Below are positions 10,607 to 51,451 of a DNA stretch of 64,000 nt, piece by piece; within the stretch, counting starts at the first letter, position 1, and the number at the start of each line of letters is the position of its first letter. The notes beneath the pieces were generated by a model, which saw only the letters and a program-made list of their open reading frames with translations, did no database searches and had not been told where the DNA came from. The DNA lies in the NCBI GenBank assembly GCA_003024785.1, contig PUQB01000649.1:72756-136755 (forward strand), written 5' to 3'. The position numbers were made by a program, and so were the translations under genes. This stretch comes from Selaginella tamariscina (taxonomy: Eukaryota > Streptophyta > Lycopodiopsida > Selaginellales > Selaginellaceae).

Positions 10607-13397
10607 TTACCGTGACTTATACTTCTTTCCTGGTTTGCCTTTCTTGCCAAACCCATTATCCACCTCGTCATCATCTGCATTTCTACGTTTTTTTTTCTTA
10701 GTCCCATCTTTCTCTTTAATATGCTGCAAAAATGTTATAATTATAAATAAAATATAATAATTAGTAATAAATTACTATTACATACCGTTGTAGCTAATCT
10801 CTGAGCTTCCGTCACACGTTCCTCCAGTAGTAAAACCTCTTCACTCTTTAGTGGAAACTGAGAAAGTTTTTTACCTGTAATAGAAAAACATAAATTATCC
10901 TTCTCTATATAACAGCATCTAATGTATGTAGATGTCTGCATATCTACACATTCAAGTATAAAGGAACATATAAACGTTATATTTCTAAGTTACTATTGCC
11001 TATAAGAACAACGCTGTGTGTGTCAGTGTGTGTGTGTGTTGTGACTGACCAATTAATTCCTCTATTCTTGTGTAGAGGGCCACCTCATATTGTGTAACAA
11101 TTGAAACAGCACGACCAGATCTCCCAGCTCTCGCTGTTCTTCCTACTCGATGTATATAATCCTGAATAAGATTAACAATTAATTAACATGCTAAATTGGA
11201 TAATAATTATCCGAACACGAGAGAGTCACAAACCTTAGAATTAACTGGTATATCATAGTTAATGACGACGTCAACAGACGGAATATCCAAACCGGCTAGC
11301 CACGTCAGTGCAAATCAGAATGTTTCTCTCTCCGGCTTTGAACTTATTTAATGCACCCAGCCGTTTATTCTACACACATTCACCAAATATTTAATAAAGA
11401 TTAATAACATAATACCCTGCTTCTTATAGTAAAATGTTGAATAAAGGAAATATTTAAATATTATATGAATAATTATAACCTGGCTCATTTGACCACTAAT
11501 TGGGATTGCCTCCATTCCAAGATTGCGCAATATCAACGCCAGCCGTCTTGTACTATCACACGTCCTTGTGAAAACCATAATAGTGCTCCCTGCCATTTCA
11601 TTCAAGATAAACACCAAGTAACAATCCTATTAAAAAGACAAGAATAAATTAGCTAAATTTCGAAGGCTCGTAAAACAGTATCAAAGCTCAAACCTTGTAT
11701 TTTGCAGGGATAAATAAGTATTCTTGCTTTAGCGTGGCAGCAGTAGTATATTTTGAAGAAACTTCCACCTGAAACATACAAATGTTCTAACACACACACA
11801 CACAAACAAACAGACAGACACACACACACACCTTCGTAGGATTCTGAAGACAAGCACGTTGAAGCTTTTGCACCTGCGTGAAACAACGAACACACGGGTT
11901 ACTAGATTGTTCATGTTCCCTAACGTTGTATACGGATATATAACGTTCTTACATAATATCAAAGGCATATAAAAGCACTAAATACATGCAGCTATAAAAT
12001 CGTACACATATCTTACCTTGTTAGTCATGGTAGCTGAAAACAAGAACGTTTTTCTTTCTCTGGGAACAACTTTCAAAATCTCGTCAATTTCTTTCTCAAA
12101 ATCGTCATGCAATATTTTTATCCGCCTCATCAAGCACCTGAAAAGCAATAGTAAGCTATTCAATTGATAAGATTCATTATATACGATCAATGGTTAATTA
12201 AAACTACAGAATAATGTATAGAGTATTCAATACTCACAGAATTTTTATGTTTCGCAAGGTGAAACCTTTAGTATTTGTTAAGTGGTCCAACAGTCTCCCT
12301 GGGGTACTTACCTAAAACATTATATAATACATTAAACAAATAACTTGTATAAGTTTACAGAGCAGATATACTTATGTTACTTATCATACCACAATGTGAG
12401 GCTTCTTCCCAAGAGCAATAGCTTGATCTATCATAGAAACACCACCAACAATCTGATAAGCAGGAATATAGTTATGTAACATTAACATATATTGTTGCCA
12501 ATATATGTGTGTACGTTGCACATAATTATGGATATATGTTATATACATATCGTGATTCCAAATTAAGCTTACCGCAACACTCCTTACACCAATTTGCGAT
12601 CCTAATGCTTCAAATTGTTCCGAGATCTGAATTGCCAATTCTCTACAATAATACGAATATATATGTGTGTGTGTGTGTGTGCGTGCGCGCGTGCGCGCTA
12701 GCTATATAACGGCTATGTATATTGTAACATAGTTATTTAAGATACACATATGTATATAGACTTATATATAATGCGTTTATGTACAAAATACCATTTTACA
12801 TATATATGTGTAGATTGTAATGTATATGTAATGTCTGTATGTATATAATGAATTACCTCGTCGGTGACAAAACACAAGCAAAAAAAGCATGGCTTTGCTC
12901 AAATAAAGCTTGCAATATGGGGAGAGCAAAAAGCCCCTGTTTTACCCGATCCCGTCTGTGCGAGGCCTATCAAATCCCGACCTGTATACAGACATACAAA
13001 CATACACATATATCTGCATTTATGGAGAAATATGCAGAACAAAACAAAATTTTGGAGATTATCAAAACATAAATATAACACACATTCCTATGTTGGCGAT
13101 TATCCTTAATTAACACACATTCACATACACAACCGCTGCATTTATCAAACAAATTTTCTTATACATACATACCGCACCGACATATATACATATACACACT
13201 CGAGATTGTTTGATAATCTGCATACAAATGTGTTCTATGTATGTCACACCTTGAAGCGCCAAAGGGAGTGCCTGGACTTGAATCGGTGTCGGATGCTTCC
13301 ATCCGAGCTTGTTACACGCATCTACAAGCTCCTCACGCACGCCGAGTTCTACGAAACCGGGCACCGCCAGGGCTCCGGCCTCCTCCCCTGCCGCCAT
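10607..13397 (-). CDS. RH10: DEAD-box RNA helicase, DDX47/RRP3 family (plant RH10), 13 exons, frame disturbed
   Basis: By family this is a nucleolar ATP-dependent RNA helicase of early pre-rRNA processing. Exons on the minus strand: 13397-13250, 12981-12857, 12642-12573, 12452-12390, 12311-12238, 12137-12017, 11873-11832, 11768-11694, 11626-11480, 11369-11234, 11161-11050, 10874-10786, 10723-10607. Visible motifs in order are the Q motif ([12 protein letters not shown]), Walker A ([11 protein letters not shown]), [19 protein letters not shown] (FLFSATMT), [10 protein letters not shown], and [11 protein letters not shown]. The tail is basic ([12 protein letters not shown]). The family match is strong end to end, about 440 residues. 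Oddities: one extra T after Walker A (~12,928), one G short at the exon 5/6 junction, one extra A just after DEAD (~12,117), and two bases short in the ASRGLDIP motif (~11,288). All splice sites are canonical. It is either a decaying duplicate or carries assembly indels. A telo-box lies at about 13,423-13,440. Confidence 0.9.
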
Positions 13398-13450
13398 CGC
13401 ACCCTAAATCCCCCCCTAATCACTAAACCCTAAACCCTAAATTGTTATTT
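13398..13450 (-). promoter_or_regulatory. Telo-box cluster upstream of the helicase start
   Basis: Two back-to-back AAACCCTAA motifs lie 26-43 nt upstream of the helicase ATG, within 'actaaaccctaaaccctaaa'. Telo-boxes are known promoter elements of plant ribosome-biogenesis and translation genes, which fits a pre-rRNA helicase. Function here is inferred. Confidence 0.5.
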
Positions 13451-13738: not shown

Positions 13739-14500
13739 TTAGAAGGAGCGAGTCCTGGCGATGGCTTGGCGAGTGGGAGGTGTGACAGAGGTAAACTTAC
13801 TCCGGTGATCAATCTCTCGCGTCTCTTGACAAATTGCACACGGAAAACACAACAAGTGTGCACAGCAGTCCTCACATGTATCCCCAGGAATATTAAACGC
13901 ATTCCTCAGCGCACGCCTGTACTACATCACAGTTAGTATGTGTGTCTCTGCGTATGTGTATGCATATAATAGACAGCACACACACATGGATATATAGTAC
14001 CTGTACCAACAGGCGTATATGCATCCACAGCAGCAAAACTGTTGGAGAATATACCACAGCAAAGAGGCTGCAATACATGCTGTTTGTCCCCTGTCTATGA
14101 TCTCCACGTTACGGCCAAACAATAAACACGGGCAGATACAACCGAAGGTGCATGTTGGGACGTCTGTTAAGCAGTCACACAGCCCTGCATGCCATTCTCC
14201 TGCATATAATAGTATTTAAGTGTATGCATATATCTGACTTTGTACATGCATGTGCTCGATCTGTAGGTGTGTGTGTGTGTGTGAGAGAGAGAGAGTATAT
14301 ATTACCTCGAGCATGTAGAATGGGGCACCTGGGTGAACAATTCCCTGTTTCACATAATGCTCATACGCAGCTGCATAAGACGGACCCGCTGGATCGTAGG
14401 CGGTTGAGCAGCTTGAGGGTGAGATTGAGGGGGAAAAGGAGCATATCCAGTGCTCCCCACCATGCGATCTCCGACCTCTTCCGTGAAGAAGACGCTCCAT
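13739..14500 (-). CDS. PLAC8 / cell number regulator (PCR/CNR) family protein
   Basis: Three exons on the minus strand: 14500-14306, 14199-14001, 13916-13739, about 190 residues. The PLAC8 domain spans exons 2-3: W-x-x-GLCDC, a cysteine-rich 'CTFGCICPCLLFGR' segment, a hydrophobic span near 'AASLLWYIL', then LRNAFNIPGDTCEDCC and CAICQETREI. Known relatives are small membrane proteins that move cadmium or zinc, or affect cell number. The N-terminus is proline-, serine- and alanine-rich, as in relatives. The C-terminal extension after the domain (about 25 residues) is basic and not recognised. Canonical GT-AG splicing of intron 1 leaves the frame one G short, giving an early stop; with one G added the whole reading frame is open. 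The gene lies head-to-head with the PPR gene, about 150 bp between start codons. Confidence 0.8.
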
Positions 14501-14646: not shown

Positions 14647-15956
14647 ATGAATATAAATGCACACGGATGGGGCAAGGAGGGTAGCGCAATCTTCATGGGC
14701 ACATCTCATCAGGCAGTGTACAAGCGTGGAAGAAGTAAGGCATATACATCGCCTTGTTGCAGTAGAAAACACAACGGTAGACAAGTACTTAGCCAATCTT
14801 CTCGTGCAAATGTATGGCAGCCTTGGAAGCCCGGATGAGTCCGTCTCCATGTTCGAGTCCACACAGGGCCGGAATGTCTTCTCCTGGAACATCCTGCTGC
14901 GTGTGTATGCACAAAATGGGCATATTCAGAATGCGTTACCTTGTTCCAAAGCATGCCTCTGCGAGACATCGTGTCCTGGAACTCGATGTTGCAAGCACAT
15001 GCACACCATCTACATATACAGAAGCTCATCGAGACGTTTCAGGAGATGCCCCAAAGGGACATTGTCTCCTGGAGTTCCCTGGTAACTGCATTTGCCCAGA
15101 ATGGGCAACCCGATTGTGTCTCAGATGTGCTAAAGAACATGCCCATGTGGGACCTCGTAGCACTCAACAGTGCCATTCCATGCTACGATCCTGAAGAAGT
15201 AATGGAACTGTTCCATACAATGTGTGTGCGTGACTCGGTTTCCTGGAACTCTGTTCTTCAGACGCTGTCTGGGGCCGGTTTAGCTGCACAAGCAGAGTAT
15301 GTATACCTCAGAATGCCACAACATAACTACATAACTTGGACCTCCATGCTAATGGCATATGCAGCAACTGGGCAGGTGCAATCGGCGTGGTTCATGTTCG
15401 GGGACATGCAACAGAGGAGCGTGGCGACGTGGAACTCGATGATAGGAGCGTTCATGCGAAACTTTCGCCTTGTTGAGGTCAAGGATGTCTTTGACAAGAT
15501 GCCCTTCTGGAACGTTTTGTCCTGGGCTTCTGTGATTATAGCGAATGCCTTGAATGGGCATATGCAGCAGGCCATGGATATGTTTAACACAATGCCAGAG
15601 AGAACCATATAGTTTGGACAAGCATGATCACGGACTCTTCTTATTCGCGAGCATTTTTCGACAGGATGCCATGTAGGAACCGTGTCGCATGGAACTCTAT
15701 GATGTGCGTTTACGTACAAAGCTCCCGTCGGGAAGAAGCTCAAAGGCTGTTCCTGGATATTCCCGAGCGGGATATTGTGTCCTGGAACGAGATGATACAT
15801 GCGAGTGGTGATATTTACACTGCACGGCTTGTGTTTGACATTATGCCTTTGTGGAACTCAAGATCATGGGAACGATCATCCAGTCATATGTAGAACATGG
15901 TGATATGCTTAAGGCAAAGTCTATGTTCGACAGAGCTCCACATGAAGAAGGTAAAA

Positions 15957-15987
<31 letters not shown>

Positions 15988-17345
15988 CTCTCTAAGTTTT
16001 ATATTGTAGGTACTGTTCTTGGAAACATTATGATGCTTGGCTACGCAAGGACCAAATCAACAGAGCAAGCAAAGGAGTTATTTGATAACAGTTTGGAACA
16101 CCGAGACTCGGTTACGTGGAATGCAATGATACAGATTTACTGCAACAACATTGATGCAGTAAACATGACAAGTTGCTTGGAAAGAATGCCTACTAGGGAC
16201 ATGGTTTCATTCGCAACTGCGATGAGTATGTACGCCACACCCATAATGTACATGGTGCAAAGAGCCTATTCAATGAGATGCCAGAGAGGGATGTATATAT
16301 ATGGACTTCACTGCTGAATGCATATGCCCAAACTGGGCATATTGAGGACGCAAAAATGGTGCTCAAGCACATGCCTGGGTGGGACATGGCTTCGTGGACC
16401 GCAATGCTGGGTGCATATGCCTTATCTGGGCATCTAGATGTGGCCAGAGAGATGTTCGAGGAGATCCCGGAACCCGATGGTTTGCATATACAGTGATGGT
16501 TACAGCATACGGTAAGCAAGGACTTTTGAAGGAGGCAGTGAGCCTGTTTCACAGCATGAGCACACCAGGAGTTATCACATATAATGCATTGCTAGAGACA
16601 TACTCTGAGAATGGATATGGAAGTGAAGCTTTCAAGCTATTTGTGACCATGGACTTGGAAGGTGTTAGTCCAAACAATGTTACTTATACAAGTGTTTTCA
16701 ATGCGTGTGCGGATGCAGGTGTCAAACTCTTGCCAGAAGGCAAAATGGTTCATGATATACTCGTTGAAAGATGCATTGTTAATGATCCATTAGTTATTAC
16801 TGCAGTTATCAACTTCTATGGCAAGTGTGGCCTTGTGGAAGATGCCATTGGAGTATTTATGGCGTTTAATAGTGAGGGTTCACAGTGTACTGGCTTATGG
16901 AATGCAGTTGCCAGTGTGTTTGCGTGGAACGGACAAGCCAGTTTCACATTTGAGCTGATGAGTTACATGGTTCTCGAAGGGTGTATCCCAGATGCAAATA
17001 TGCTGCTTACCACGTTAACCGCGTGTAACCACGGGGGTTTTAGTGTCTCAAGCAAGGGACATCTTCAGAGATATGCTCGGTGACCATTACGTTGTTGCCG
17101 GGGTGGAACACTACATGTGCATTGTGGATGTGTTGGACGGGCTGGTCAGCTGGGGAAAGCACAAGAGTTGATAGAGAACATGCCATTTGAGTCACAGGGG
17201 ATAGCCTGGACTACTTTGCTTGGAGCTTGCAAGACACAAGGCGATGCTCGGAGAGGCGTGTTTGCCGCAAGGAACCTTTTGTGGAGTTTGATGTTCATGA
17301 GGTTGCTACTTATAAGTTGCTTGCATCCAGTATACATGTTGGTCC
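14647..17345 (+). CDS. Pentatricopeptide repeat protein, PLS class with E-like end; frame broken
   Basis: An organelle RNA-binding protein by family. Long runs of about 31-35-residue PPR motifs are visible, mainly S-type: 'NVFSWNILLRVYAQNGHI', 'RDIVSWNSMLQAHA', 'RDVYIWTSLLNAYAQTGHI', 'MASWTAMLGAYALSGHL', then longer P-type motifs (GVITYNALLETYSENGYG). The end, 'GIAWTTLLGACKTQGD' followed by 'FDVHEVATYKLLASS', resembles an E domain; I see no DYW. One intron at about 15,953-16,009 carries a (CT)n run. At least six or seven one-base shifts interrupt the array, near 14,943, 15,612, 15,878, 16,245, 16,483, 17,050 and 17,134, several in short homopolymers. The start is uncertain; the first PPR-like sequence is near 14,700. 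It could be a pseudogene, or the sequence could carry indels. Confidence 0.75.
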
Positions 17346-17398
17346 ATGATATATATATATTTATAAACTCTTATATATATGGAGTGTATACATGCACA

Positions 17399-19228
17399 GG
17401 TGAACCCTGCACCTAAGAGATTCCAGGGCCGTAGAACACAGAGGCAAAAAGTTGTTTCAGATGTTATATCTGCTCTAAAACTATGTACGAAAGCGAGGGA
17501 CTTAAGTGGTGGGAAAACACTCCACTCGGACGCGGTGGCAGCAACCTCCATACGGACAAGTACGTGGTTTCTGCCCTGATAAACATGTACATTAGGTGCG
17601 GGAGCATACAGAGTGCTAGAGATGTCTTCGAGGGGACGACAAATCAGGACGTTGTTACGTGGACAAGTCTCATCCGTGGATACGTGGAGAATGGAGAGAG
17701 CTCCGTAGCTCTGGAACTGTTCAACAGCATGGACTGTGTAAAGGACCACGTTACGTATGTTGCTGCACTCAAGGCGTGCGTGGGGAGAGTGGAGAATGGG
17801 ATAGAGATTCACAGAGAGATACAGGAGCGAGGGTATGATTCTAAGATAGTCGTGGCGAACACGCTTGTGTATATGTATGGGAAATGCGGGTGTATGCATC
17901 GTGCCAGGGAGGTTTTCGATGGGATTTTACACAAGGATGTTGTTACATGGAATACTATGATCTTGGGATACGTGGAGAATGGGGAAAACTCAGTGGCTAC
18001 GGACTTGTTCATGTGTATGGACTGTGAACCGGACGAGATTACATATGTTGGTGCACTCAAGCATGTGCTGATCTAGAGAAAGGGATTGCCTTGCACAAGG
18101 AAACGAGTTCTCGTGGATATCTATCTAGCGTAATTGTGAGAAGCACCGTGATGGATATGTATATGAGATGTGGTAGTATGCACCATGCTAAGGAGGTCTT
18201 TGATGGTACACTCAACCGGGACGTGGTTATGTGGAGTTCCTTCATTTTGGGTATGTGGAGAATAAGCAGGCTTCTTTGGCACTGGTGTTGTTTAACAAGA
18301 TGGACTGTGAACCGAACCATGTCACGTATATTGCTGCACTCAAGGCGTGTACAACTGAGAGAGAGGGGACGCTCATACACAGACATGCTGAAGAACGAGG
18401 ATTTACCTCTCAGGTAACCATCGTAAACACGTTGTTGGACATGTATATAAAATGCGGGAGCATGCATAGTGCTAGGGAGGTCTTCGATGGGATTGTCTGC
18501 AAGGATGTTGTATCATATAACTCTCTCATGATGGGATACGTGGAGAATGGGGAAAGCTCGGAAGCATTGGATTTGTTCATGTGCATGGAGTGTGAGCCAG
18601 ATGAGTTTACTTACGTTGCAGGACTCAAGGCATGTGGAAGCTTAACTGCGTTATCCGTTGGAAGAGTGATGCATGCCACGCTCTGCTGCAGATTTGGAGT
18701 AGAACATAACCAAGTGGTGGGAAGCGCGTTAATAGACATGTATGGCAAGTGCGGAAGCGTGCATACTGCTGAAGTAGTGTTCAATAGCTTGCATTCTCCC
18801 AACGTCGTGTCATGGACTTCGTTAATGACGGGATACACCTCACTTCAGGTGTTCAGGCTGGCAAACAAGATGCAAGAAGCTGGTGTGCAGTTGAATAGTG
18901 CTACATTCACGTGTCTTCTCACAGCATGCAGCCATTCAGGTATGGTTGAGGATGGTAAGAAATACTTTGAATCCATGTGTAAATATGGTATAACTCCAAA
19001 CAGAGAACATTATACTTGTATGGTAGATATGTTGGGAGAGCTAATAGGTTGGAGGAGGCGATATCAATTATAACGAGTATGCCTTCTTTCGCCGATGGTG
19101 TTACTTGGAAAGCACTGTTAGCTGCCTCCAAGAAATGGAAGAACTCTGCAGTGGGCAAAGTTGCCTTTGATGCTTTGGCTCACAGAACACAAGATGGAGC
19201 TCCTTTGTACTTATGGGGGATACCTTAA
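17399..19228 (+). CDS. Pentatricopeptide repeat protein, second copy in tandem; frame broken
   Basis: The PPR array has a different flavour from its neighbour: repeated 'ALINMYIRCGSIQSAR', 'DVVTWTSLIRGYVENGESS' and 'MDCEPDHVTYVAALKAC' type units, at least five, then a long L2/S2-like end (ATFTCLLTACSHSGMVEDG) and an E-like segment (GVTWKALLAASKKW). The repeats are highly alike, suggesting recent internal duplication. One-base shifts fall near 17,540, 18,065 (AAGG to AAG), 18,248 and 19,042. It starts about 55 bp after the first PPR array, behind a good acceptor (atgcacag at 17,398), so the two could be one transcript; I prefer two genes because the first already ends in an E-like domain. Confidence 0.72.
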
Positions 19229-19249
19229 GTGCATAAATGTATTGTGCGT

Positions 19250-20393: not shown

Positions 20394-21641
20394 TTACTCT
20401 TCTGACGTTTGATCTTCATCTAACGATTCCACACTCTGCTGCTGCAGTTGCTCTTCAGTAGTCTCCTCCGTTGTCTCCATTCCCATCACTTGAAGTGACT
20501 ACACAAATAATAATAATAATAATAATATGTTATTACTAAAATTTAAAAATATCACAATAATTATAAAACATTATTAAGTTATCTTGGTTAAATTATTCAA
20601 ATAATGGACAACGTTATTAGGTTACCTAGACTTGGATGATTATTGTGGGTTTAAACCCTAAACCCTAGGTTAGAGAGAGACCTGAGATGCGGTGTAGCAC
20701 TGGCTGGACAAATCGGGCATCTGGTTATCAGGGTGGTAAAGGTTCCAGTCGTGGTTAACAATCTCAGCCGTAGATCGCTGGGCAATATCTAGGCTTGGAT
20801 TTGCACCGTCAGATCCCATGTAGCAGATTCCAAGCGGGGGTCGTAGCTCGAGCTGTGTTTGCATTGCTGCACTTCCCTGTAATCCCATATAGAACCCATT
20901 CGAGGATGAACTTCCCAGTCCAGGTTCTGTTATACGTGTCTGAAGTGGATACACCTGTGCGTGCGTGCGTGTGTGTATATTATTAGAGACCCGTTAAATA
21001 CATTGATCACTGTTATTAAAGTACCTGAGAACAGAAAGGAATCATCTGGTGACTTTCCAACGGCTGCAAAACCACAAAAATATTTTATTAAAATAAATAA
21101 ATAAATAAATAAATAAATACCTGTCTCATGCAAAAGCCAATGTTCTCAAGGTCTTGCTGAAACACCAATATTAAAATCTCTCTAGACACACACACGCACA
21201 CGCACGCACGTACCTTACGAAGGCGTATCTTCTGCAAGGTCTTATCAAGCTCACTCTCAAGCTTGCACAAATCATCGTAGTTAAACAGCTCAAGCAGCTG
21301 CTCATCCCCTTGGTAAACTCTACAAAAAAACAAAACATAATTAATTAACACTAATTAATAGAGCGTTAATTAACCACCTCAGTCGCTGCTGAAAGCACTC
21401 ATTCTCATGTTGCAGTCTCCTGATCTCCTCTTGAATGAGCTGTGTCATTAAATATACATAATTAGTAAAATAGAAAAGCTTGAGCTAAAGACTACGGAGT
21501 ACCAGTACTCACCCCGATATTGTTCAAGTTCCTGTTAAACAAAACCATTAATAAAGATTAGAAAAAGAAATCAATGAATACCTTGTGAGATGAGAAGCAT
21601 CGCTCTCTGCCTTAAGCTTCCGTATAGCCCGATTAAGTTGC

Positions 21642-21680
<39 letters not shown>

Positions 21681-22087
21681 AACTAAAAGCCGCTTATAAG
21701 ATCTTCCTTACCTCCAAGTTCTCCATCTTTCTACAGGTGGAGATACATACACATTAGATAAAGATGACAGAATGCGTGTGAAAGTACCTTTTTGTGCGCT
21801 CATTCTCAGGGAGATTAGCGTATCGGTATATGACATCCTCCACCCTGCATATAGATGAGATTAAGGAACTAATCTGGATGGATTAGTCACTAATACTCCC
21901 ACCTCATATCGGTTGCATACTGTGTGAGCTTTCCAGACGGCGAGAACATGATCAATGCAATGTCTATGTCACAGAGCGTGGATAGCTCATATGCCTTTTT
22001 AACCAGTCCTGTTCTTCTCTTCGAGTATGTCACCTGTCTGTTGGTGGCATTCTCTATCTTCTTAATCTCCAGCTTAACCCTCCCCAT
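20394..22087 (-). CDS. MIKC*-type MADS-box transcription factor (AGL30/65/66/104-like), 11 exons, intact
   Basis: Exons on the minus strand: 22087-21903, 21844-21788, 21730-21712, 21640-21582, 21531-21513, 21439-21378, 21319-21214, 21156-21121, 21063-21025, 20954-20682, 20498-20394. They sum to 960 nt, 319 residues, fully in frame. Residues 1-60 are the MADS domain ([20 protein letters not shown], then [14 protein letters not shown] and IMFSPSGKL). Exons 2-8 encode an I/K region with heptad-like leucines, long and split into many small exons as in MIKC* genes. The C-terminus is rich in glutamine, serine and acidic residues. Known MIKC* proteins act as heterodimers in the gametophyte (pollen, moss). 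Start choice is secure from the MADS domain. A telo-box pair sits in intron 10 (about 20,650-20,668). Confidence 0.92.
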
Positions 22088-22880: not shown

Positions 22881-23983
22881 CTATGTAGTAAGGAAATCCC
22901 ACACTTTGGAACCCAAGGACTTTCGACGATCTTCCTCAGCGTCTTCCTCGTCTTCCTCATCCTCACCATCATCCTCCTGCCCTTGTTCTTCCTCGCCTTC
23001 ATCATTCTCTTCTGTTTCTTCAAAGTCTTCCTCTTCACACTCTATCTCTTCCACTTCCTCAGTCACCGCAACGAACTTCTCAATTACACTCACTCTCTGT
23101 CCTTCTACACCCTCGTCGTCAGAAACACCTGCAAAATATATCAATGTATTGTCATATATGCACACACACACACACATTATGTGTGTGCGTGTGTGTTATA
23201 AGTTCAATATCTATGAATCGTACGTAGTCTCTCTCTCTCTCTATATATATATATATAAGCCAATAAATAACAAGTATCGACGTATGTGTATATTATGATG
23301 CATATATATAATGATGTCGTGTATAACAATCCTTACAGGTACTCGTGTCTGTACATTAGAAAGAAAACTTTCATATATTATCGAAGCTTGTGTGCATTGT
23401 ACTATATAAACATTATGCATCCATGGACATGTGTAATAGTGATATACTTTATATAAATAGCATTGATATACAAGCAATTTAACATGCACGTCATATACAA
23501 CATGTAATAGCATCTGTGAGTTTACGTACCGGCATAATATGGAAGAAACTATATTCACATATAAATATATGCATAAATGTGAATAATTACGAGAACTGTA
23601 CCTTTGGTTTCTTCCAAGACAATCTCCAAGTTAGCAGTGCCATCCTCATTCTGTACGGCATCCTGGTTGTCCCTGGTGCTCGCAGGCGACGAAAAAACCA
23701 CATCAGCATTCTGTGACGTGGCAGCCACGTCAACCTCCCCGTTACAGAAATCATGGTCGTGCTTTGCATGAGCCGCTTCTATTTGCATCTTCTTCAAGAC
23801 GGACTGCAAGAAAAAGATGCACACTGAACGCACGCACGCATACAGAGATATGGTATTAAGGTTATAATATACATACATTTTGTTATATAAAGAAGAATAA
23901 AGTACATTATATATACACAACATAAAAGAACATATAATATGTAAGATTCAAACACTTGACCCTTTGTCGTGTATGGTGTATTC

Positions 23984-24036
<53 letters not shown>

Positions 24037-27000
24037 ACAATGTGAGTTGTTGATAGGTATTGAAATACGTACATACAACGTGTGTAATTAAACTTACATT
24101 TGGAGGTGAAGGCGCAACTGCCGCTTGCGAAGCTCGCATATTGGCACTGTAGATATAACAAAGCATATTAACTAATTAAAATGTAATATGTATATACATA
24201 TATATGTAATTGGAAAACCATATAAAGCAGTAGATAAGTATTTTGTAAGTTCTAAAGCCCTATAGATGTGTTTAGTCATAACTAAGGGTATGCAGTGAGA
24301 CATAAATATAACTAATTTAACTATGTACATAAATTGAACTAATTCTGTTTGTCATTGTGATCATAACTGTTGACAAACACATAAACAGAACTGCATATAC
24401 TTAAAAGATATGTATATCTACGAATGAAAATCGAAAGGATACAAATGCTGCTTTATAACCATATGCATGTGTATATAACTCACATGGTAGAATCTCTGAA
24501 GTTGTAGCGAGGAGTAGAATCCCCGTTCACACCAATGGAAGACTCCGTGTGCCTTCTCCTCTTCCTCCCACTAGGAGTACCTTCAGAATGCGCTTCATTT
24601 CCCGCATTATCCTCCTCAAGGCGACGTTTTCTATAATGAGTTTAAGTCAAGCGGGCACTCGAGCGTGTACACACACACACAAATATAGAGATAGAGATGC
24701 ACCAAGCCTATACTTATGTATGTAAATATACAGATAGTATTAGATTTACAAACTGCATCTCACAGTTGCTAAAAAATAAGATATATTATTAACAATGACA
24801 GAAACATATCATACAAAAAAACAAACATAAACATTTATATAAGAACAGCACATTGTCCCCAAGTAGATAAATATATGTACACTGATGTATATATATTTTG
24901 AATTATATACTTACCTGCCAAGAGTCTGATCTGGTTCTTCCGGTTGTTCACTGACATCTGGTGTATTTTCTTCAGAAAGTGTACGAGGGAATATTCTCGA
25001 CGCACATGTACGAAGCCATCCCAGCGTTCCAGGCGACTTTTCCAGAAGTTGTAGCGTGTTCTCATTAGCAATTTCCTGTGCACGTAAATTTGTATCAGGC
25101 TAGAACAGGCCATCACCACAATACGTGTGTGTATATACATGGCGTGTACACGATGAAATATATATATCTGCATGTATCTGATCATTGCCTAATGTACATA
25201 TGTACGTACATAAGCATAGGTAATTATATGCATATCTACCTAAGTATACAATTACACATTTATAAACATGTATATATGTATATAAGCATGTATTCAAGTA
25301 CATACTATGTATACCTTATTTGATGACGCTGGCTGTGCAGCAGGAGCATTCTGGACCGCCCGTCTTGCAGACATAACCTCTCCATCATTGACATTCCTCT
25401 TTGAAGCTTGCTGCTGTTCCGACATCCTTAAACTGTCTTCAATTTCCTTAAGATCGTCCTTCATTTTCCTTACCCTCTCCGCTTCCTGTGTAAAGTGTAC
25501 ATGTTTATATAAATCTACATGTGTGCGTGCGCTATGCATGTTTATCCATCTATCTTAAGGATACTTTACAAACATGCATATTCATTATGCATGTATATAT
25601 ATTGACACAGACAGAGAGATCCAAATTCACACCCACCCACCCACCCCACACGTCAGTGTTTCATGTAAATGTTTGCCTATACGACCATAAAAATTGGGTA
25701 TGAATATGAATATATATACCTGTAGAAGGTCTGTTCTCTCAGTATGTAGAGCCTCTCTCTGCTCCCTCAGCTTCTCTCTCTGCACTTGCAGCTCATGTAT
25801 ATCCTGAATACAACAAAGTATTTACTCCAACATACCAAATAATAAGAACACTTAAGTATATTTCCGTGAAAAAACACACGTGCTAAAATTCCACACGTAG
25901 AATACATTGTTATGGAGACATATATGAACTTGCGCGTCTGTGTGTGTATACGATGAATGAGTATTATATGCATGGAGATAGTACCTAAAAAGGAAACTTA
26001 CCTTCTTTATTTCCTGCCACTCTGATTCCGCAAGCTCCCGTTGCTTGCTGACCTCTTGTCTCTCTTTCTCAAGCTTTTGCCTCTCAGACTTCACATCCTC
26101 CACCTCCTATATAATAAACAAAATTACAATACATATCGAGGAGTCTTTACTGTTGATTCAATATGTTATTAGAACATATATAACAGCCATATATATACAC
26201 AATAAATACCTTCTGTGCATTCTCTCGGATTGAAATTGCTTCCTGTTTCTCTTTCTGTACTTCCAGCAACAATCTAGACTCCCTTTCTTCAACTTGCTTC
26301 TCAAGTTCCTCAGTTCTCTTTGCAATATTCTGTTTTGTTCATATAGATAAGAAAAATACTATTTGGATTCATACATTATTACTCCCCGTTTATTTCTATA
26401 TATACACATATGTACACACACACACACAGATATATATGTACACATATGTACACACACACACACATGTAGAATATCTAGTTTTGCTACGTACATAGACATT
26501 ATACACTCTAGTAAATTATTGCAGACTTATACTCTCTTTAGACATGTGTTTCAAACTGTTCATAACACAGTCTTACATAACAGACGTATATATGTATTGT
26601 CGTATATAAACATTACCCTCTCAAGCTCGGCACGTCGCATGTCCACGTCTCGAATCAGCTTTTCTCTTTCTGTTTCCACTCTGGAAAGCAGCTCCGACTT
26701 CTCCATTTCCATGTCACTTGTAAGTCTCAACCTCTCAATGTTCAAACCTTCTAATTCTCTGTTCACCTGCTTCCAAAAAACATACTCTTAAATAAATACA
26801 CGCGACTCTTACTATCACATGTACACAACTTTAACAATTCCAACGTATAATTATATCGAGTTAAGCAGGATGACTCCATATATCGTTTTACAAATATACA
26901 CATCTATATAACAGTTGTACCTTCTCATGCAACTCTCTCTTCTCCTGTTTTACTCTTTCCTCCTCATCACGCAACCACATTGTAACCCTCTTCCTCTCCT

Positions 27001-31886: not shown

Positions 31887-32059
31887 CTCTTAAACATTAC
31901 GACTCTTTGTTTCAACACAAGGTGCATTCCAAATTGGCTTTCCTGGCAAAACATTGAGCAGGAGATACTCTTTTTATTTCAAATGTTTTGGAGATAATTA
32001 TATCTTCCAGATAATTATATCCAGATTTATTTAGCATATCTGGAGATAATAGTTGATTA

Positions 32060-37907: not shown

Positions 37908-37986
37908 ATGAAATTTCGTGCTGCAAATCCGGGGTTTCTTGACTTTTGCAGGACCCCGATCTCAAAACGTTTTCATGATGGTAAGT

Positions 37987-38027
<41 letters not shown>

Positions 38028-38420: not shown

Positions 38421-38539
38421 AGTGTATAGACTGGAGCTATATGACACATTATATGCATAAAATATAATCTCTTCCATGAGTACGTGGATGGTTAGAAAAC
38501 AGTGTTAAAATAAAATGATATTTTTAAAATTCTCCCATA

Positions 38540-38997: not shown

Positions 38998-40771
38998 ATG
39001 CAGGGCGGTCCGAGAAAGGTTTGGCGCAAGCACTCGCAGTCTGGGGCAGGGAGCAATTCGGCGGCGCCCGTTCTCTCAGCGAAGCCGGATAGGGATTCGT
39101 CTCCAGCTCCGCCAACTTCACGGGTATCGGACAGTGAACCGGGCGCTGTGAAGAGCATGTGGGTTCCCAAAGCGACGCTCACTACCTCTCCAGAGAAGCG
39201 ATCTCCATCGCAGGCAGCCGTTGTAGAAGAAACTGCGTATCCTGTCAAGAAGGGCGTTTTGAAGGTGAAGTCGGAAGTCAGAGCGACCTTCTATCCCAAG
39301 TTCGAGAATGAAAAGTCTGATCAAGAGGTTGGTTTATTTCTAGCTTTTTGTATCATTCATGTGGGTATCATCGTGTATGTATGCAATTTTCGTTGACTAA
39401 CCTTCCGTAGTTCTGTTTTTGTATATTTATACACACACCATGTTCTGTTTTTCTAGCTTTATGCAGATGCATGTGTGTGTTTGATTTTCCTGTCTAGGTA
39501 TCTGACTTGACTATTGGTTCAACAGATACGATCCAGGATGATTGAAGTGGTATCGGCTGGTAGAGGTGTCGTTGAAGTCACTTTGAAGCATTCTGGGTCG
39601 CTGTTCATGTACGCTGGAGACGGAGATGCATTTGCAAAGAACAGCTTCGGAAACCTGTAAGCTTTATATCTATCTTGTGTTTATTTTTCTTTCTGTGTAT
39701 ATAGCAAACACATGTACTATAAGTTTTCATTGTGCGGAACATTTTGTTTCAGTTATACTGCAGTCGGGGTGTACGTTTTGGGAAAGACTCTGGAACAAGC
39801 ATGGGGAAGTCAATACAGAGAGAAACAGAGAGAATTTAATGCCTATCTTAAGGTTGGTCGCACAACTCTCGTTTTTCTGATTATTGTTCTAATTTTTTTT
39901 GTTTTTTCTAGAACAACCGTATTTCTATTTCTATGGAGCTTGTCACTGCGGTACTGGGAGATCACGGTCAACGGCCTCTCAAAGATTACGGTAAACTACT
40001 GTGTGTGTGTGTCTGTGTATGTATGGGATATCTATATAGAATCATATAATAGTCTATTCTTTGTCTTTTTGAGAGTTCTGTTTTTCTTTTACAGTGGTCG
40101 TAACCGCAGTAACGGAGTTGAGTGGTCGACCTCGATTTTATTCTACACCTGATCTAGTAGAATTCTGTCGACAATGGCGTCTCCCAACTAATGAAGTCTG
40201 GTTGTTCTCGACAAGGTATATATACATACTCAGCACTATATATTCAGTGTCCTCTGCAATGTCTAATGAATGTCTTGTAGAAAATCTTCGTCAGCATGTT
40301 TTGCTGCGTATGATGCTCTTTGTGAACAGAGTATATACAGCGTAGTTCGGGACAGCTTCAATAAGATTGCCGATACGTACGTCCCTGGTAAGCTTAGTTA
40401 GTTGTTGAAATCATTATTGATAGTTTGTTATGATGATATATTTTCTGTTTTATGATCAGGCACTGAGAGCCATGGGGTTGTTCAGGGAGAAATTCTTGAA
40501 GGTCTGGTTGCTCGTATTGTTAGTTTTGAGAGTGTCGAGAAGTTAAAGCGCGTTGCGGGAAAGTACCCCGTGCCAGACCATCTTCCTGGTAATTGCTCTC
40601 TGTCTCTCTCTCAAAACGCACATATCGACACCGTAACTTACCTTTCTATATTTTCGAACAGTGTTTTCTAATTCTTGTTTGTAGGATCATATACTGCGCC
40701 TGGTCTTCGTGAGATTTGTTCCGAAAATAGGCAAAGCGAGAAGGAGGTTAGTGATTGTTAACATATACATA

Positions 40772-40802
<31 letters not shown>

Positions 40803-41308
40803 TATATAATATAGTACATATACATATATATACGTATATCTGCAGCAAAGCAAAGCACTGTTAAAAGCTGTTGGCACCGATTTCTGTTCGGATTGGAGTG
40901 GGTGGTTCCAGAAGGACAAGGATCAGACTTCACAGTCCACGTGGTTCAGCAAATTTGTGAGTACGCCTGCTGCTGATGAGCCCACTGCAAAACTCCAGGT
41001 ATGTTATTTCTAAATCAATCGTATAGTTATTCTAATACCTCTTTTCATTTTATATTTATGTCTGCTTTGACCTATGCATACAATCTATACGCCCTTTAAG
41101 TTACGGTATTGGATGCATTAAACTACTAAATTACCAGCGTATGAAAGCTTTTGATATTGTTTTGTGCAGGAAATGATAAGGCTTCTGAAGCAGAAGAAGA
41201 TGCCTGTAAAGTTCAAATGTCAAGGCCATTCAGGCGTTGACAATGAGTTTACAATGACTATTCATGTGCTTCAGGATTCTGTTTTTCGAAGATACCAGAA
41301 GGAAATGC

Positions 41309-41360
<52 letters not shown>

Positions 41361-44300
41361 CTGTGTGTGTGTGTGTGTGTGTTGTGTGTTGTGTGTGTGT
41401 GTGTGTGTGTGTGTGCCTATATATAGGCACACACACCGTATACATATATTTAGAAGCTCATTTATTACTCTGATTCGTTCATTTTTACAGATACAATCCA
41501 AGTCTGTGGCCGTTATACAGAGGTATGTTATTATAATTATCAGTCTTGTAACTAACATTGTGTATCTTGTATTATATGGCTATCTATTAAATGATGCACT
41601 TCATAAAACCTGTTGAAAATATCATGTTACAGGTTTTTTTGTCGATGTCAAGCTCACAAAGGATCCACTAGACACCATGGCTAAGAAAGATACGGAACCC
41701 CATCTGGGACATTTAGACGAGGATGCCATTGCAGATGATGCAGAACATCTCATGGTCAAACTCAAGTTCCTCACTTACAAGGTTTAATTAAATACTTTAA
41801 ATATCAACTCACTATAAACGTCGATTATAAATCATATGCTTCTGTGCGTATATGATTATTTGGGGTTTGAAGTTTCTTTTGTTCTTTCACACAGATCCGT
41901 ACGTTCTTGATCCGTAATGGCTTGGATATCCTATTTAACAGAGGCCATCATGCGTACAAAGAGTATTATTTGAGGTAAGCCCTGTTTTGTGTGTACGTGT
42001 GTGTATGCCGTGTATGTATGTGCATACTACAGGCAAATGAAAATATGGGGAACATCGCCAGAGAAACAACGGGAGCTCTCCAAACTTTTGGACGAATGGT
42101 AAGTACAATGATCATAATAATCTTATATTTAACACATATATGTATATGCAGGGCTGTACATATCACAAGAAAGATCAAAACTGGCAAGTTGAGAGAAGGC
42201 TCGTATCTTTCTGAAGCAGAGCCTTTCTTAAAGGAATTTGCCAGCCGCGGTTTAAAGAATCAGGTAATAAATGGTGATACATGTGAAGCAATATGTTACG
42301 GTTTGACGTATTACATTTGTGTGTCCATTTTTAGTTAGAATCTTCGATTATGGTTTAGCGTAGAAGTACATTGTACGTCCTCCTGTGTTATGAGTAACAT
42401 TGTGTGTGTCTGTCCAGCTACTCGTGGGACAAGCAGGTACGGACATTGATACGGATGCATACATTGCTGCCACACGAGGCGATGAAGAAGACGAAGAAGG
42501 CGATTTGAAGCAAGATATTGGATCCTCAACAGATATTCCCATCACTAAAAATCAAGGCATCAAAGCCAAGGGCCTTCTCGTCTTCTTCCCGGGTAAATTT
42601 CTATTGTGTTTATGTATAGGACATGCATATACATAGTACATTTTATGTAATCATCTACCATAACGAAATAGTGAGCACTAGGCTATCCATAATTTGTGTG
42701 TGTGTGTGTACACACACACACGCACACACACAATAGAACCTGTCTAGTTTAATACTGTCTAATTTATTAACCTTTATAATTTAATTTAATTTTGTTTTGC
42801 CCCGCCTTAATTTAATAATCATGTAAAATGGCTTAATTGAATTTAATCTAATCTAATTAACCTCAATGAAACCTAATTAATATTAATTAAACCCAATTAA
42901 ACTTAATAATAAACTTGTGTAGGTCCCGACAATATTAAATTAGTATTTAATTTGTACTGTATTTTTATAATGCATTTGCATATCTTGTACGTACTCCCCT
43001 TGCTATCGACTGCTAAATTATAGCATCTCTGACAGCTTATCTAGATAGTAAATGATACACTAGTTATATATAAATTTACATATGTATGTGTTGTTATTTT
43101 ATAGGAATACCCGGCTGCGCAAAGTCTGCGTTGTGCAACGAGATACTGAACACGCCAGGTGGACTCGGTGACTCCAGACCTATGAAGAGTCTTATGGGCG
43201 ATTTGATTAAAGGTATAATTACCGTATATGCTATTGATGATTCAATTGACGATTGTTATTGGTATAATTTTATAACCTTTATGGTCTTTTTGTTGCAGCG
43301 AGGTACTGGGCAAAGGTCACTGAAGACAGGTTGAAGGATCCTAATGTCATCACGCTGGCAGACAAAAACGCTCCAAACGAAGAAGTGTGGAGGATGGTAA
43401 GCCTGTAAACACGCGCGTGCGCACATATACGGATGCACACATTATAAAAATGCATTAAACTGTACATTACAGGTCACTGATATTTCCAAGCAAACGGATG
43501 CAATTGCAATCCCGGTTGTGCCCGATTCTGAAGGTATAGACTTGATAGAGTAAACATTTACTCATGTCTGTGTGACAAATTAATTGCTCTTTTCTTTTAT
43601 TTGAAGGCACGGAGTCGAACCCCTTTTCCCTTGACTCTCTCTCCGTATTTATTTTCCGAGTCCTGCATCGTGAAAAGCATCCGGTAAGCACTTTAATGTT
43701 ATTACATGGATGTATTAACATAAATAATGTTCCTATTGTAAATAAAATTGCTATATAAAAGTTTTGACTTCGTTTGATGTATGTTATATTTGTAGGGCAA
43801 TCTTGACAAGAATTCCCCTTATCCCGGCTACGTTCTTCTTATGTTCTACAATTTATATGAAGGAAAGGTAAGAATATTCTGGCTATATATCACTATATAT
43901 ACATCACAACGCAATCGTATACCTATACACATACAGACACGTCTAACTATGGTTACTCTCTTGTTTCTTTTGCATTAGGATCGGAACGATTTTGAAACAA
44001 GCTTGCACGAACGCTATGGTTACCTTGTAAAAGTCCCTTTGTTAAAACCTAACAGGTAAGTGACAAATACGCACATGACACAGACACACACGTGTTTGGA
44101 TATGATACACACGTACACACAGTAAATGGATACTTAACAGCGTGTTTGATTACAGACCTCCCTTACCTCAGCCTATCAAAGCTGTACTCGAAGAGGGGTT
44201 GGATCTGTTTCAAAAGCACAGTGCAAAACACGGAAAGTAAGCATTTTAATATTATTCTTATATTGTGCGCAATTGTACAAATATATAGTGAGAGAAAATT

Positions 44301-45699
44301 TATGTATAATATTTAAGCGATATATATATATATATATATGTATATGTATATATATATAATTCTGTTTATTATTTTATTTTTTGAATCCATATAGGGCCGA
44401 TCCGTCCAAGGGAGCATATAAAAAACAATTTGACGAATGGGAAGCAAAACTGAAGAACGTTTTGTTTTCGCATTCAAGTTACTTGAACGACATTCAGGTG
44501 CGTAATAGACATATATCACAATGTTTCACATGTCCTGAAAATTATGGTAGGGAGTAGGTTACGGTTTATATCAAAGTATCGTGTATTGTCATTTTCTATT
44601 ATATACATAAAAATGTACTTTATGTTTTGATATAGCTCATACACACACGGCTCTGCATATGTATGTGTGTTCGTCCGTGTAGCTGGGTAATATATGTTCG
44701 CATGCATATAAATACGAGTATGTGACACAATATAACATGGTCAACGATATGTATATGAATGTGTTTGCGTGTGTGTGTGTCTGTGTGTGTATTTACCACG
44801 ATTATTTATGTAAGTGCATATGTGTTCCAGGTTCCATTTGAAGAAGCAGTGAAGTCTGTCAGAGAGCAACTCCGGGCCGTGGTTACTGGGCAAGTTCAAG
44901 TACACATGCCAGAACCACAGGAACGTAAGCTGCACTCCTTCAATTATGCCGCACTCACGGTCCCCTTGGATGGAATTCATGAGGCACTTTCCAAGGTAAT
45001 CGCTGCTGTCATGTTAATGAACATTTGTTGACACACAAACATCCATACACACGCCGGACAAATAACACGCTTTTGTGTTTGTAGGCGTCGAAATGCAATC
45101 CTGAAGTGGAGGCCTTCTTAAAGCCAAAGAATCTACAGGGCTCACTGCGTGGAGGCCACGTGACACTCGCACACCTACGGTCCCACGGAGTAGCTGCGGT
45201 TGCCGAGTACGGAGCCTACGTGGGTGAGAAAGTCCCATGCAAGTTTACCGCTCTCTTATACTGCCCGAGGATGGCTGCACTCGAAGCTCATATTATGAGC
45301 GACTCCATTTCTTCCAAAAACCAGTTCGCTCACGTCACGGTACATTATATACGCATATATATTATATAGTCTGCGCGTATATTTCATGTACAGTGTTAAA
45401 TTTATGTATATCTTTGTAGAATACGGAAACATTACTGATTATATTGTTATCTCGCATAGGTTATATTTCATAGACATCTCTCTCTATGTTGTGCATATAT
45501 GTGCACACACACACGCCCGCAATGCGCAGATGTGTATTGTACTGAGGTTCGTGTTTTAATGTGGCAGCTATGGACTGCAAAGGGGACGCCACCAAAGGAA
45601 GCAGGGTCGCTAGCCAGCTTGGTCGAGAAAGGGGAAGCTACTAGAGTTGAATTGCCGGAGCCGGTTGTGATCACGGGCAAGGTGGAGTTCAAACTGTGA
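38998..45699 (+). CDS. RNL: Plant tRNA ligase RNL, 27 exons, intact (1,064 aa)
   Basis: Trifunctional enzyme that joins tRNA exons after intron removal; in plants it also splices bZIP60 mRNA. Exons: 38998-39327, 39526-39656, 39753-39852, 39912-39990, 40095-40215, 40281-40387, 40460-40588, 40685-40746, 40846-40998, 41170-41309, 41491-41522, 41633-41781, 41895-41974, 42033-42098, 42152-42263, 42418-42592, 43105-43212, 43299-43396, 43473-43533, 43607-43683, 43796-43867, 43979-44055, 44156-44236, 44395-44497, 44831-44995, 45085-45339, 45568-45699; total 3,195 nt with no frame break. Ligase domain: adenylation lysine in KHSG (residue about 128), GEILEGLVARIVS. Kinase P-loop GIPGCAKS. Phosphodiesterase pair HVTLAH and HVTLWT near the C-terminus. 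All three activities look preserved. The N-terminal ~90 residues are Ser/Pro-rich and may carry targeting. Confidence 0.97.
41311..41416 (+). repeat. (CT)n(GT)n microsatellite in RNL intron 10
   Basis: About 40 bp of CT followed by about 55 bp of interrupted GT begin three bases after the exon 10 donor. It pushes several short ORFs that are not genes. Such runs recur in introns throughout the gene island. Confidence 0.85.
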
Positions 45700-47035: not shown

Positions 47036-48046
47036 ATGAGGCCCACTAACGGGTTAATCAATAGAATTAAAAGAAATTATTTATTCTACTATGGGTTTGT
47101 TTTCTCACTTGTTAATTATATTATTTATAAGCACCTATATGGCTTTTTTGGTGATAACTAAATAACTAGGCAATTTTGCCTGGTTGTATAGGTACTGAAC
47201 ATAATTTAATAACATATCCTTTTCTCTTTGTTTAAGAAATTTATGTATTAAGATTGATTAATTAGGTTTTGTAATTTTAGTTTTTAATAAAAAACAGATA
47301 CATGTGAGGCAATAAAATAAATGAATAAGATTGTCTTATTTTATATAAAGAACATTAGCAAATGTATTAATGTGGATAATATGCATAGTCTTTTGAGAGT
47401 TTCTCATATATAATATTTTCTATGTATAATTAATATTATTTCATTCAGACTTAATATGTATTATTAAAAATAACATGAGTTTTATAAGAAATTAATAAAA
47501 ACATACATAATGTTATATTTATATACATATACATGTATAACATTACTTTACATATGTATATGTATAGAAATTTATATATTCATATATATAAAGAGAGAGA
47601 AAAGATCTCCTTATATAATTAATAAATAATTCTTATGTATAAATAAATATATATATATATATAATATCACATGTAAGTATGTAATAACTAAAAAATCTTT
47701 CTCTTTCTACACATCCACATGTTTATTTGTAATATATATATAAAGAGAAACACTAACCAACGATTCCATATAAGAAAATGGAGTTACTAAAGAGTTAAGG
47801 ATTTAATATATCTTTTTAATTAAACATATTTTGTAGGTGCACATTTATTTATATATTATGTGTAACATACATTCATAAAAACCTAGTAATCGGTTAAATA
47901 AAAATTATGCATTAATAATTTCTTTTTAAATTCAATTAATCATTATAATGAAAAAGCACAGTAGTAATAATAATTAATTATGTAGCATTATTTTAATTTA
48001 TCAGGGCTAAATAATCATCCGTTAATACAGAGTGGGTCTTAATTAA
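47036..48046. mobile_element. MITE-like element with terminal inverted repeats, copy 2 (inverted relative to copy 1)
   Basis: The reverse complement aligns with 32,616-33,452 over both ends and much of the interior. The ends read AGGCCCACTAACGGGTTAAT and, reverse-complemented, AAGACCCACTCTGTATTAACGG. It is about 1.0 kb, longer than copy 1 because of AT-rich interior additions. Non-coding. Confidence 0.7.
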
Positions 48047-49184
<1,138 letters not shown>

Positions 49185-51451
49185 TCAGGGTATATTTGGG
49201 ACTCTGGACTTCCGAACAACGGCATCAATGACTTCCTGGCTCTGCTTTCCATACATACTAACCACTTCCTCATTGAGAATATCCACTGCTTCATCGGGAT
49301 ATTCTCCATAGTCCAGCATAATAGCCATCCTCGACAGCGTATGCATATTCCCAGGAGCAGTCGCATGAAATATTCAAACAGCTCCTTCAAACTCGGTACG
49401 TTCTCGTCCTTTGATATACACGCTGCAAGGTAGATGTCTGCATAACCCGCACGTATCCAATTCCTTTCCTCCTCTGTGAAAGATCATACAGGGTTTATGC
49501 AGGGCTTAAGGTTTACATACACGCGTACCGGAGAAAGGCTTAATTCTCTTTTCAATGTCCAAAACCACCTCGAGAACGTTCTCTGGAACATCATCATGAG
49601 GCAAATCCTTGAGAATATCCTTCTTTTCCCTCTCAAAGGAGCATCTCTGACACTGACACACAAAGCCCTTAAACTGTAATGCCAGCTCGCGGTATCCGTG
49701 GAATGGAGACAACGTTGCCCCTAGATAGGAGACCAGAACCTCCTCCCCTGCCTAAAGGAGCTAACAGTTAGTAACAGATACACACACACACACACACACC
49801 TTGATGTCCTTTGCAGCTCTAACAAACAGAACATCTCCAATACACATCCTGGATGCATTTGGAAGGCACGAATGGTTAATAAGTCCAGCAAATGCCCACA
49901 CTCCATGGACATGTTCGTCATACGAAGAGAACCCTGCATTAGCTCCAACTCTCTCTACATGTTCAGTATTGAGTACCCTGCTTTCCCTCTTGCTGAAGAC
50001 TTTCCCGTTGTTGGTCTTGAACACATTTATATCCGGTACTCTCTTGTGGTCGAAAAGAGCGTTAACATGCCTGAGTTTCTTCTCAGAGTCCAAGCAGGAC
50101 TTAACAAGCTCAACATAGAGGTCCTTGTGAGGTTCATCTGAAGAAAGAACTGCACTTGTTGGATTACATACCAAGAGAAGCTCCCCAATCCGCACATCTT
50201 TTGTTAAGTAAACGCCCCTTCCTCTTCCATCTGGGGTCAGCTTAACCTCGAGGGGCCCAAAGAAATCTGCATACTCCACATGCTGAGGATTGTCTTCTTC
50301 CAGCAAGTGTCGTGAGATATCATACTCTCCTTGCTTGTTTTGCCGGAGGAAGGCTTCACATTTGGCTATATCCTCCAGTATTTTTGGCGGTGGTGTGGGT
50401 TCTACGGACTCTAAGCAGCTCAGCGCAAGCTGGTGCTCCTGTAATGCAATGAGACTCCTTCCTTTTGTATGCAGCCTCTTGAGCTGGTGGGCACTCTGTA
50501 AGCTGCCAATACTGCTTGCAGTCTCTGTATCTGTAATCGCTTCTTCATATCTCCCCAGTTTTAGTCTTGCCTCGGCACGGTTCAAGAAGACATCCTAAAA
50601 CAGCCATTAATATAGTATCCACGCACACGTGCTTACACAAACACTCTCACACACACATTATTGCACCTTTTCCATTTCACCATAAGTAGATTTGTCCCGT
50701 GCACTAAACAGGTTGATCAACTCCGTATAATGAAGCTCTGCCAGTAGATTTTCTCCGTTTGAAAGCAACTTATCGCCTTCTTTCTTAAGCTCCTCCACCG
50801 ACTTCCTCCGGAGCTTCTTTGGAAGGCCGATCAACTCCACAGAAGCTGGAGTTCCTACTTGCATGATAGAACAGTAGAATACTGGCTGCATAGATGATGC
50901 AAAATGTGTGTGTGGTGTGTGTGTGTGTGTGTGTCTGTGTGTGAAACTCAAATACCTCCTTGATGGCGATTTTGACATCTTTTGGGTACATGGTGAGAGC
51001 TTCCTCTGGTTTAGAAGTGGATTTTATAGCATTAAAGATTTGTATAAATGCGCAACCGCCGTCTTCAGGCTCAGACTCAACAAGACACAGAACCATTCTT
51101 TCCTCCACTTTGGCAGATGCACATATGTTTGCTTGCACCACTCGACCTTCAAAGCACATCTGTATAATATCTTAGCATTGTACACAAGGAGATATAGTGG
51201 AAGAAACAAATGCCCATTAAGGGTATTTGCTGCTAGATGTGGTTTTGTAACATATAGAGGCATTTCATGTACATATACATTACACATTGTACCTCTTTGT
51301 CCAGTTGCTGGGAGCGAATGTAACCCTCACGGATTTCAATTGGCTTGAGACCGAGTAATGGCGGAACAAGCTGCTTGCAATTGAAGCTCATTGGCATAGT
51401 GGCGCCATCGCACATCGCCTTGAATGCGCGCATCAGGGACGCCTTGTCCAT
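49185..51451 (-). CDS. TPR-SET domain protein (plant SMYD-like methyltransferase family), 6 exons
   Basis: Exons on the minus strand: 51451-51293, 51159-50956, 50885-50667, 50594-49800, 49751-49529, 49473-49185; about 628 residues. TPR-like helices lie at about residues 165-290 (AELHYTELINLFSARDK, FLNRAEARLKLGRYEEAITD). A split SET domain follows: GRGRGVYLTKDVRIGELLLV, a long insert, then GLINHSCLPNASR (the NHS cofactor motif) and AGEEVLVSYLG (catalytic-tyrosine region), and a Cys-rich post-SET (VCQCQRCSFE). It is a probable protein lysine methyltransferase; the substrate is unknown. The last exon needs one T added in 'tatttcat' near 49,378; without it the C-terminal ~60 residues are replaced by an off-frame tail. 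Everything else is clean. A telo-box-like 'taaaccctgtctaaccct' precedes the ATG. Confidence 0.9.

Follow-up and report, generated by a model that had tools for sequence, protein, structure and literature searches.

Frame shifts in neighbouring genes of a Selaginella tamariscina contig as probable consensus errors of the assembly

Ten gene models were examined in a stretch of 64,000 nucleotides from Selaginella tamariscina (the window; positions 72,756-136,755 of the contig labelled C1003), and 22 small frame shifts, confirmed in the assembled letters, interrupt six of them (Table 1). These comprise 17 deletions and 5 insertions, and all change the length by a single nucleotide (nt) except for one 2-nt deletion. 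The first-pass annotation, made from the same letters, had counted about twenty one- or two-base shifts in neighbouring genes, which agrees with the present count and with two to four further missing bases that are probable in a seventh gene, PLAC8; it had also listed the RNL, MADS and EF-hand genes as shift-free, and after re-splicing these genes have no shift in the window copy. Its four examples of shifts in base runs (~12,928, ~12,117, ~31,325 and ~49,378) are all present; in the last of these, in the TPR-SET gene, a shift does occur, but the missing base sits in an AT stretch (49,373) and not in a T run, as judged from a second assembled copy of the region on another contig (C643). The named genes were re-spliced from three-frame translations, with exon tables for six of them, and the shift intervals were placed by eye; GT-AG sites could be placed at every exon boundary of the 65 introns tabulated, which shows only that such sites exist, since the boundaries were chosen in this way.

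Table 1. Gene models of the window and the position and sign of their frame shifts (-, bases missing; +, bases in excess)
Gene model	Position	Strand	Structure	Frame shifts in the window copy
DDX47/RRP3-like DEAD-box helicase gene (DDX47)	10607..13397	-	13 exons	4: 12931-12925 (+1), 12239-12238 (-1, at donor), 12119-12113 (+1), 11294-11291 (-2)
PLAC8 gene	13741..14500	-	shift-free splice possible	missing bases indicated by C643 at 14321, 14398, perhaps 14480, 14496
PPR gene 1 (PPR1)	14657..17349	+	one short intron ~15952-16010	8 (7 deletions, 1 insertion): 14936-40, 15604-05, 15861-71, 16237-41, 16476-80, 17133-37, 17276-80 (-1 each); 17033-42 (+1)
PPR gene 2 (PPR2)	17401..19230 (start approximate)	+		4 single-base deletions: 17538-42, 18062-63, 18250-51, 19035-36 (-1 each)
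MADS (SRF-TF + K-box) gene	20394..22087	-	11 exons, 960 nt	0
CRWN-like coiled-coil gene	22881..29860	-	19 exons	3: 28566-65 (-1), 28014-13 (-1, at donor), 27836-30 (+1)
F-box-like open frame	30702..31992	+		2: 30921-25 (-1), 31325-28 (+1)
RNL (tRNA-ligase-like) gene	38998..45699	+	27 exons, 3,195 nt	0
TPR-SET gene	49185..51451	-	6 exons	1 single-base deletion: 49369-68 (-1)
EF-hand open frame	62322..62684	+	single open stretch, 363 nt	0

Pfam finds PPR, PLAC8, SET and MADS domains in the read-through or spliced proteins. The F-box-like and CRWN-like proteins and residues 1-794 of RNL gave no Pfam match, and against the PDB the best E value for the same RNL residues was not below 0.08; the names CRWN-like, RNL and F-box-like are putative and follow the first-pass annotation. 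The only stop in the spliced RNL coding sequence is the terminal one. The DDX47 protein aligns with DDX47/RH10 proteins, the top of 120 listed matches being that of Selaginella moellendorffii (85% identity over 93%), and the stretches that its four shifts interrupt are conserved in five homologues. A search for PLAC8 homologues at an E value of 1e-10 found none.

A homology-free coding model, based on codon use and splice sites and run with two intron penalties, called no shift in RNL, EF-hand and PLAC8, three shifts in the CRWN-like gene (with all 18 hand-drawn introns recovered), one in TPR-SET and three in the F-box-like frame; for PPR2 it called 3-4, for PPR1 9-10 and for DDX47 3-4, the DDX47 calls lying partly off the hand-placed positions and recovering 9 of 12 hand-drawn introns. 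It also made two false calls in MADS, and being too blunt for exact placement it served as support only; a scan of the remaining window with this model returned low-quality predictions that were not used.

The genome searched (300.7 Mb in 1,391 contigs) contains, for the DDX47 stretch, one other long match, on contig C643, the remaining listed matches being short repeats, and the CRWN-like stretch likewise has one other long match on the same contig. Aligned to the window, C643:218,001-278,000 shows 96.6-96.7% identity over window positions 10,045-32,614 and 38,503-59,371 and 89.6% over 33,478-37,814, a segment excluded from the counts of substitutions and indels given below; a later piece of C643 matches window positions 57,000-63,995 at 98.8%. 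At 19 of the 22 shift sites C643 carries the exact length that restores the reading frame (4/4 in DDX47, 7/8 in PPR1, 4/4 in PPR2, 1/3 in the CRWN-like gene, 2/2 in the F-box-like frame and 1/1 in TPR-SET), and for the F-box-like frame it does so at both sites in two C643 copies; at these sites the indel is absent from the other, independently assembled copy of the same sequence. At the remaining PPR1 site (17,033-42) the two copies have opposite errors, with a surplus base in the window and a missing base in C643.

The comparison also holds in the other direction. Where the window is in frame, C643 contains 53 frame-breaking indels (18 in DDX47, 9 in PLAC8, 8 in the CRWN-like gene, 5 in PPR2, 4 in PPR1, 3 each in RNL and TPR-SET, 2 in the F-box-like frame and 1 in MADS, at 20836), together with 4 further indels that are multiples of three; some of the CRWN-like events form adjacent plus/minus pairs, and four of the PLAC8 events are, in our own reading of the alignment, probably errors of the window rather than of C643. 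DDX47 is in a worse state in C643 than in the window. RNL has, beside its three frame breaks, three losses of a multiple of three, and the EF-hand frame of C643 is short of a single base at 62365 and of two bases at 62430-31, which adds two frame breaks beyond the 53; the RNL, MADS and EF-hand genes are therefore clean only in the window copy. The combination of a second copy that reads through nearly all shifts and carries its own, different errors is what identifies the shifts as mistakes of assembly. On this comparison of sequences, nearly all of them are almost certainly consensus errors and not marks of gene decay; as a class, they are an ordinary assembly artefact. In C643:246,900-253,000, additional partial copies of the 5' half of RNL (window 37,731-42,694) and of the F-box-like gene (30,701-31,973) precede the full RNL copy, as a partial tandem duplication or a misjoin.

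The PLAC8 gene occupies an intermediate position. The correction that the first-pass annotation had called for is not needed from the window alone, where a splice with donor CAG|GTGCCC avoids any shift and keeps the full PLAC8 domain, but it becomes probable through the second copy: with the extra base that C643 carries at 14,321 and at 14,398, the canonical donor becomes compatible with the PLAC8 frame, and near the gene start C643 has two further extra bases. The reading in which PLAC8 has no shift at all was dropped, since the missing bases indicated by C643 are the better reading; the window copy probably lacks two to four bases, as indicated by the second copy alone.

The most probable account is the following. 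Contig C1003 almost certainly retains residual consensus errors of one base, and once of two, in a region of which the assembly kept two copies apart, either as allelic contigs or as a very recent duplicate; the errors arose independently in the two contigs, whose frame-breaking indels hardly ever coincide. They probably stem from noisy long reads that were not fully polished, and polishing reads may perhaps have been split between the two nearly identical contigs; PMC8812927 describes short-read polishing as unreliable where alignment is ambiguous. Error density would then vary along the contig, so that some genes look broken and others perfect.

The distribution of the shifts is uneven in this way: 16 fall in the 6,356 coding bases at 10.6-19.3 kb, which leaves 6 for the 10,784 coding bases elsewhere (P 0.0007), and RNL has none against 4.1 expected (P 0.017), or against 1.8 if the right-hand part is taken alone (P 0.12), with PLAC8 counted as 0 in these statistics. 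That some genes are broken and others perfect does not reflect the genes themselves; location accounts for part of the contrast, and each of the three perfect genes has breaks in C643. The sequence context of the shifts is biased as well. Runs of at least three identical bases are touched by 13 of the 22 shift intervals, against 6.4 expected from random intervals of equal lengths (P 0.004), and runs of at least four by 6 of 22, against 1.8 (P 0.008); all five insertions touch a run of at least four, which occurred in 0 of 20,000 draws. When the changed base was identified against C643 by hand count at the 19 informative sites, it lay in a run of at least three at 10, in a two-base run at 6 and outside any run at 3; runs of at least three account for only 15% of coding bases (P 0.00015). 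A bias towards homopolymer runs is present, yet it is not diagnostic alone. The explanation by homopolymer errors of the assembly, which the first-pass annotation had preferred, is supported as regards the assembly by the in-frame second copy, and is too narrow about the homopolymers, given that only 10 of 19 changed bases lie in a run of at least three.

The most serious rival holds that the shifts are true lesions, i.e., that neighbouring genes have recently decayed on one haplotype while working copies persist on the other. C643 reads through 19 of the 22 shift sites as a working allele would, and two CRWN-like sites are common to both copies, as a true lesion or a systematic error would be; yet the same genes are interrupted in C643 too, as are RNL, MADS and EF-hand, so that the two haplotypes together would lose nearly every gene, and DDX47 on both. 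True frame-breaking variants are expected to be rarer than substitutions and more strongly depleted in coding sequence. The two copies differ otherwise: the aligned coding sequence of nine genes (16.7 kb) contains 35 substitutions and 64 single-base indels (30 and 66 when the coding part is aligned exon by exon), whereas the control lines of an Arabidopsis mutation-accumulation experiment contained 91 single-nucleotide variants and 18 indels, and the heat and warming lines together 341 and 137 (PMC8145854). The non-coding sequence (23.0 kb, simple repeats excluded) gave 198 substitutions and 183 single-base indels; substitutions are consequently 4.1-fold rarer in coding sequence (2.09 vs. 8.6 per kb) and single-base indels only 2.1-fold (3.83 vs. 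7.95 per kb; Fisher P 0.003 against substitutions). The indels exceed the substitutions and behave, as errors would, as if insensitive to coding constraint. In window positions 57,000-63,995, 8 mismatches and 62 gaps separate the copies. A comparison of 40 kb of C1003 to the left of the window with 50 kb of C643 yielded only two aligned pieces of at least 1 kb; the piece of more than 94% identity (1.6 kb unmasked; 8 substitutions, 10 single-base and 11 longer indels) is too small to generalise, and the second (90%) was not counted. Repeat pairs within the window were too diverged to serve as a gauge of error.

Constraint on the encoded proteins likewise argues against decay. The substitutions between the copies are 18 nonsynonymous and 17 synonymous over the nine genes, where 72% nonsynonymous would be expected without constraint (P 0.0065). 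The DDX47 protein has 6 private changes in 276 conserved columns, compared to 14 in 284 columns for the intact protein of S. moellendorffii and 1, 1, 11 and 19 in the other four homologues; measured against four outgroups, 44 of 328 positions are changed, compared to 53 of 331 in S. moellendorffii. Outside its shifts, the aligned DDX47 sequence thus shows no more divergence than the intact S. moellendorffii protein, and amino-acid relaxation of the kind seen in pseudogenes is found neither in DDX47 nor in the nine-gene set. In the segments between shifts of the six genes, no stop codon made by substitution was seen, and apart from the two single-base shifts next to donors no splice site was lost, so that the indels are not accompanied by the nonsense substitutions and splice losses of a pseudogene. 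The absence of stops is a weak test: 3.3% of random substitutions create one, and 22 indels at the Arabidopsis control ratio would be accompanied by 3.7 stops (P 0.025 for their absence). That several neighbours decayed recently, a reading which the first-pass annotation had kept in reserve, is very improbable in view of the indel excess, the constraint on substitutions and the normal divergence of DDX47. Slightly less probable still is a rival of another kind, that the gene models are mis-drawn and that short introns, alternative donors or separate genes mimic the shifts. PLAC8 can indeed be spliced without shifts from the window alone, and adding introns or splitting genes allows a shift-free model of each gene; such models score worse for DDX47, the CRWN-like gene, TPR-SET, the F-box-like frame, PPR1 and PPR2 (and also for MADS, whose shifts are false), the canonical PLAC8 donor is backed by the second copy, and the copies differ in length at 20 of the 22 sites, which a splicing mistake would not yield.

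Several observations weigh against consensus errors as the explanation and should be set beside the evidence for it. Two of the 22 shifts, those of the CRWN-like gene at 28,013 and 27,830, are identical in the window and C643. The differences between the copies of PPR1 are 7 nonsynonymous and 1 synonymous, unlike the nine-gene total, and weak or relaxed constraint on this gene is possible from these counts; its 120 listed relatives, at 22-33% identity, are too distant for an ortholog-based test of constraint. At the ratio of the heat and warming lines, only 1.8 stops are expected (P 0.16), and their absence becomes unremarkable. Nine of the 22 shift sites touch no run of at least three, and real mutational indels, according to PMC8145854, also favour repeats and, under heat or warming, deletions, so that neither the run bias nor the deletion bias discriminates between errors and mutations. 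The CRWN-like pair and the PPR1 constraint leave the verdict for the whole set unchanged.

The CRWN-like pair is a case apart, alike in both copies and in this unlike the other 20 sites. It combines a missing base at a donor (28,013) with an additional base in the next exon (27,830-27,836), and the net change over exons 5 and 6 (83 + 133 nt) is zero. Identity in both copies and zero net change would suit a real feature of the species (a pair of lesions, -1 and +1, that compensate each other, or an unusual splice) and not an error made twice; between the two sites, however, the frame has a coding character only if the shifts are applied and contains a stop if they are left out, and a systematic error could recur in the ACCGGT and GGGTTTTT contexts of the sites. 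For this pair alone, a true species feature is an unlikely but not negligible alternative. That the pair is real in the narrower sense, the donor -1 and the +1 some 90 coding bases later cancelling as an unusual splice junction or a fixed compensated lesion, appears from the sequence somewhat less likely again.

Among known systems, the preferred reading of consensus errors finds its closest counterpart in the residual indel (homopolymer-length) errors of long-read assemblies that disrupt reading frames (PMC8812927, PMC12007338), with which it shares small length errors, many of them in runs, as well as frame shifts and false pseudogenes; those two sources concern bacterial or small genomes, in contrast to the plant assembly with a doubly held region considered here. 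Different errors in two nearly identical contigs fit this type of artefact. Recently decayed pseudogenes resemble the present genes in having frame shifts in still recognisable sequence; they differ in that here no nonsense substitutions were seen between the shifts of the six genes, splice sites are kept, DDX47 has no excess of missense changes and C643 has breaks of its own at other places. A census of genes or pseudogenes based on this assembly, or a claim of gene loss made from it, would go wrong: of the ten gene models examined in the 64 kb, seven would be scored as broken here and the remaining three in C643. Where an assembly retains a region twice, comparing the copies offers a read-free way of separating assembly indels from decay; it discriminates since real variants consist mostly of substitutions and are scarcer in coding sequence, whereas errors show neither trait.

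Several repeats surround the genes. A retroelement stretch at window positions 5,210-10,043, with matches to gag, protease, reverse transcriptase and integrase, has imperfect end repeats (84.8% identity with 23 mismatches and 1 gap) and is apparently absent from C643, where the alignment begins at 10,042-10,045 and is joined directly to 40 bases of the upstream flank; upstream of those 40 bases, no flank aligns to C643. Such diverged ends are odd for a retroelement insertion that is missing from a near-identical copy. A 15 kb block containing RNL is bordered by inverted repeats at 32,602-33,414 and 47,054-48,051, which match each other in two pieces at 73-75% identity, and a 2.1 kb stretch at 35,588-37,677 matches its own reverse complement at 79%. 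Tandem repeats whose copies differ in length occupy positions 973-1,519 and 2,189-2,901. The right end of the window (64,000) coincides with the end of contig C1003 (136,755 bases).

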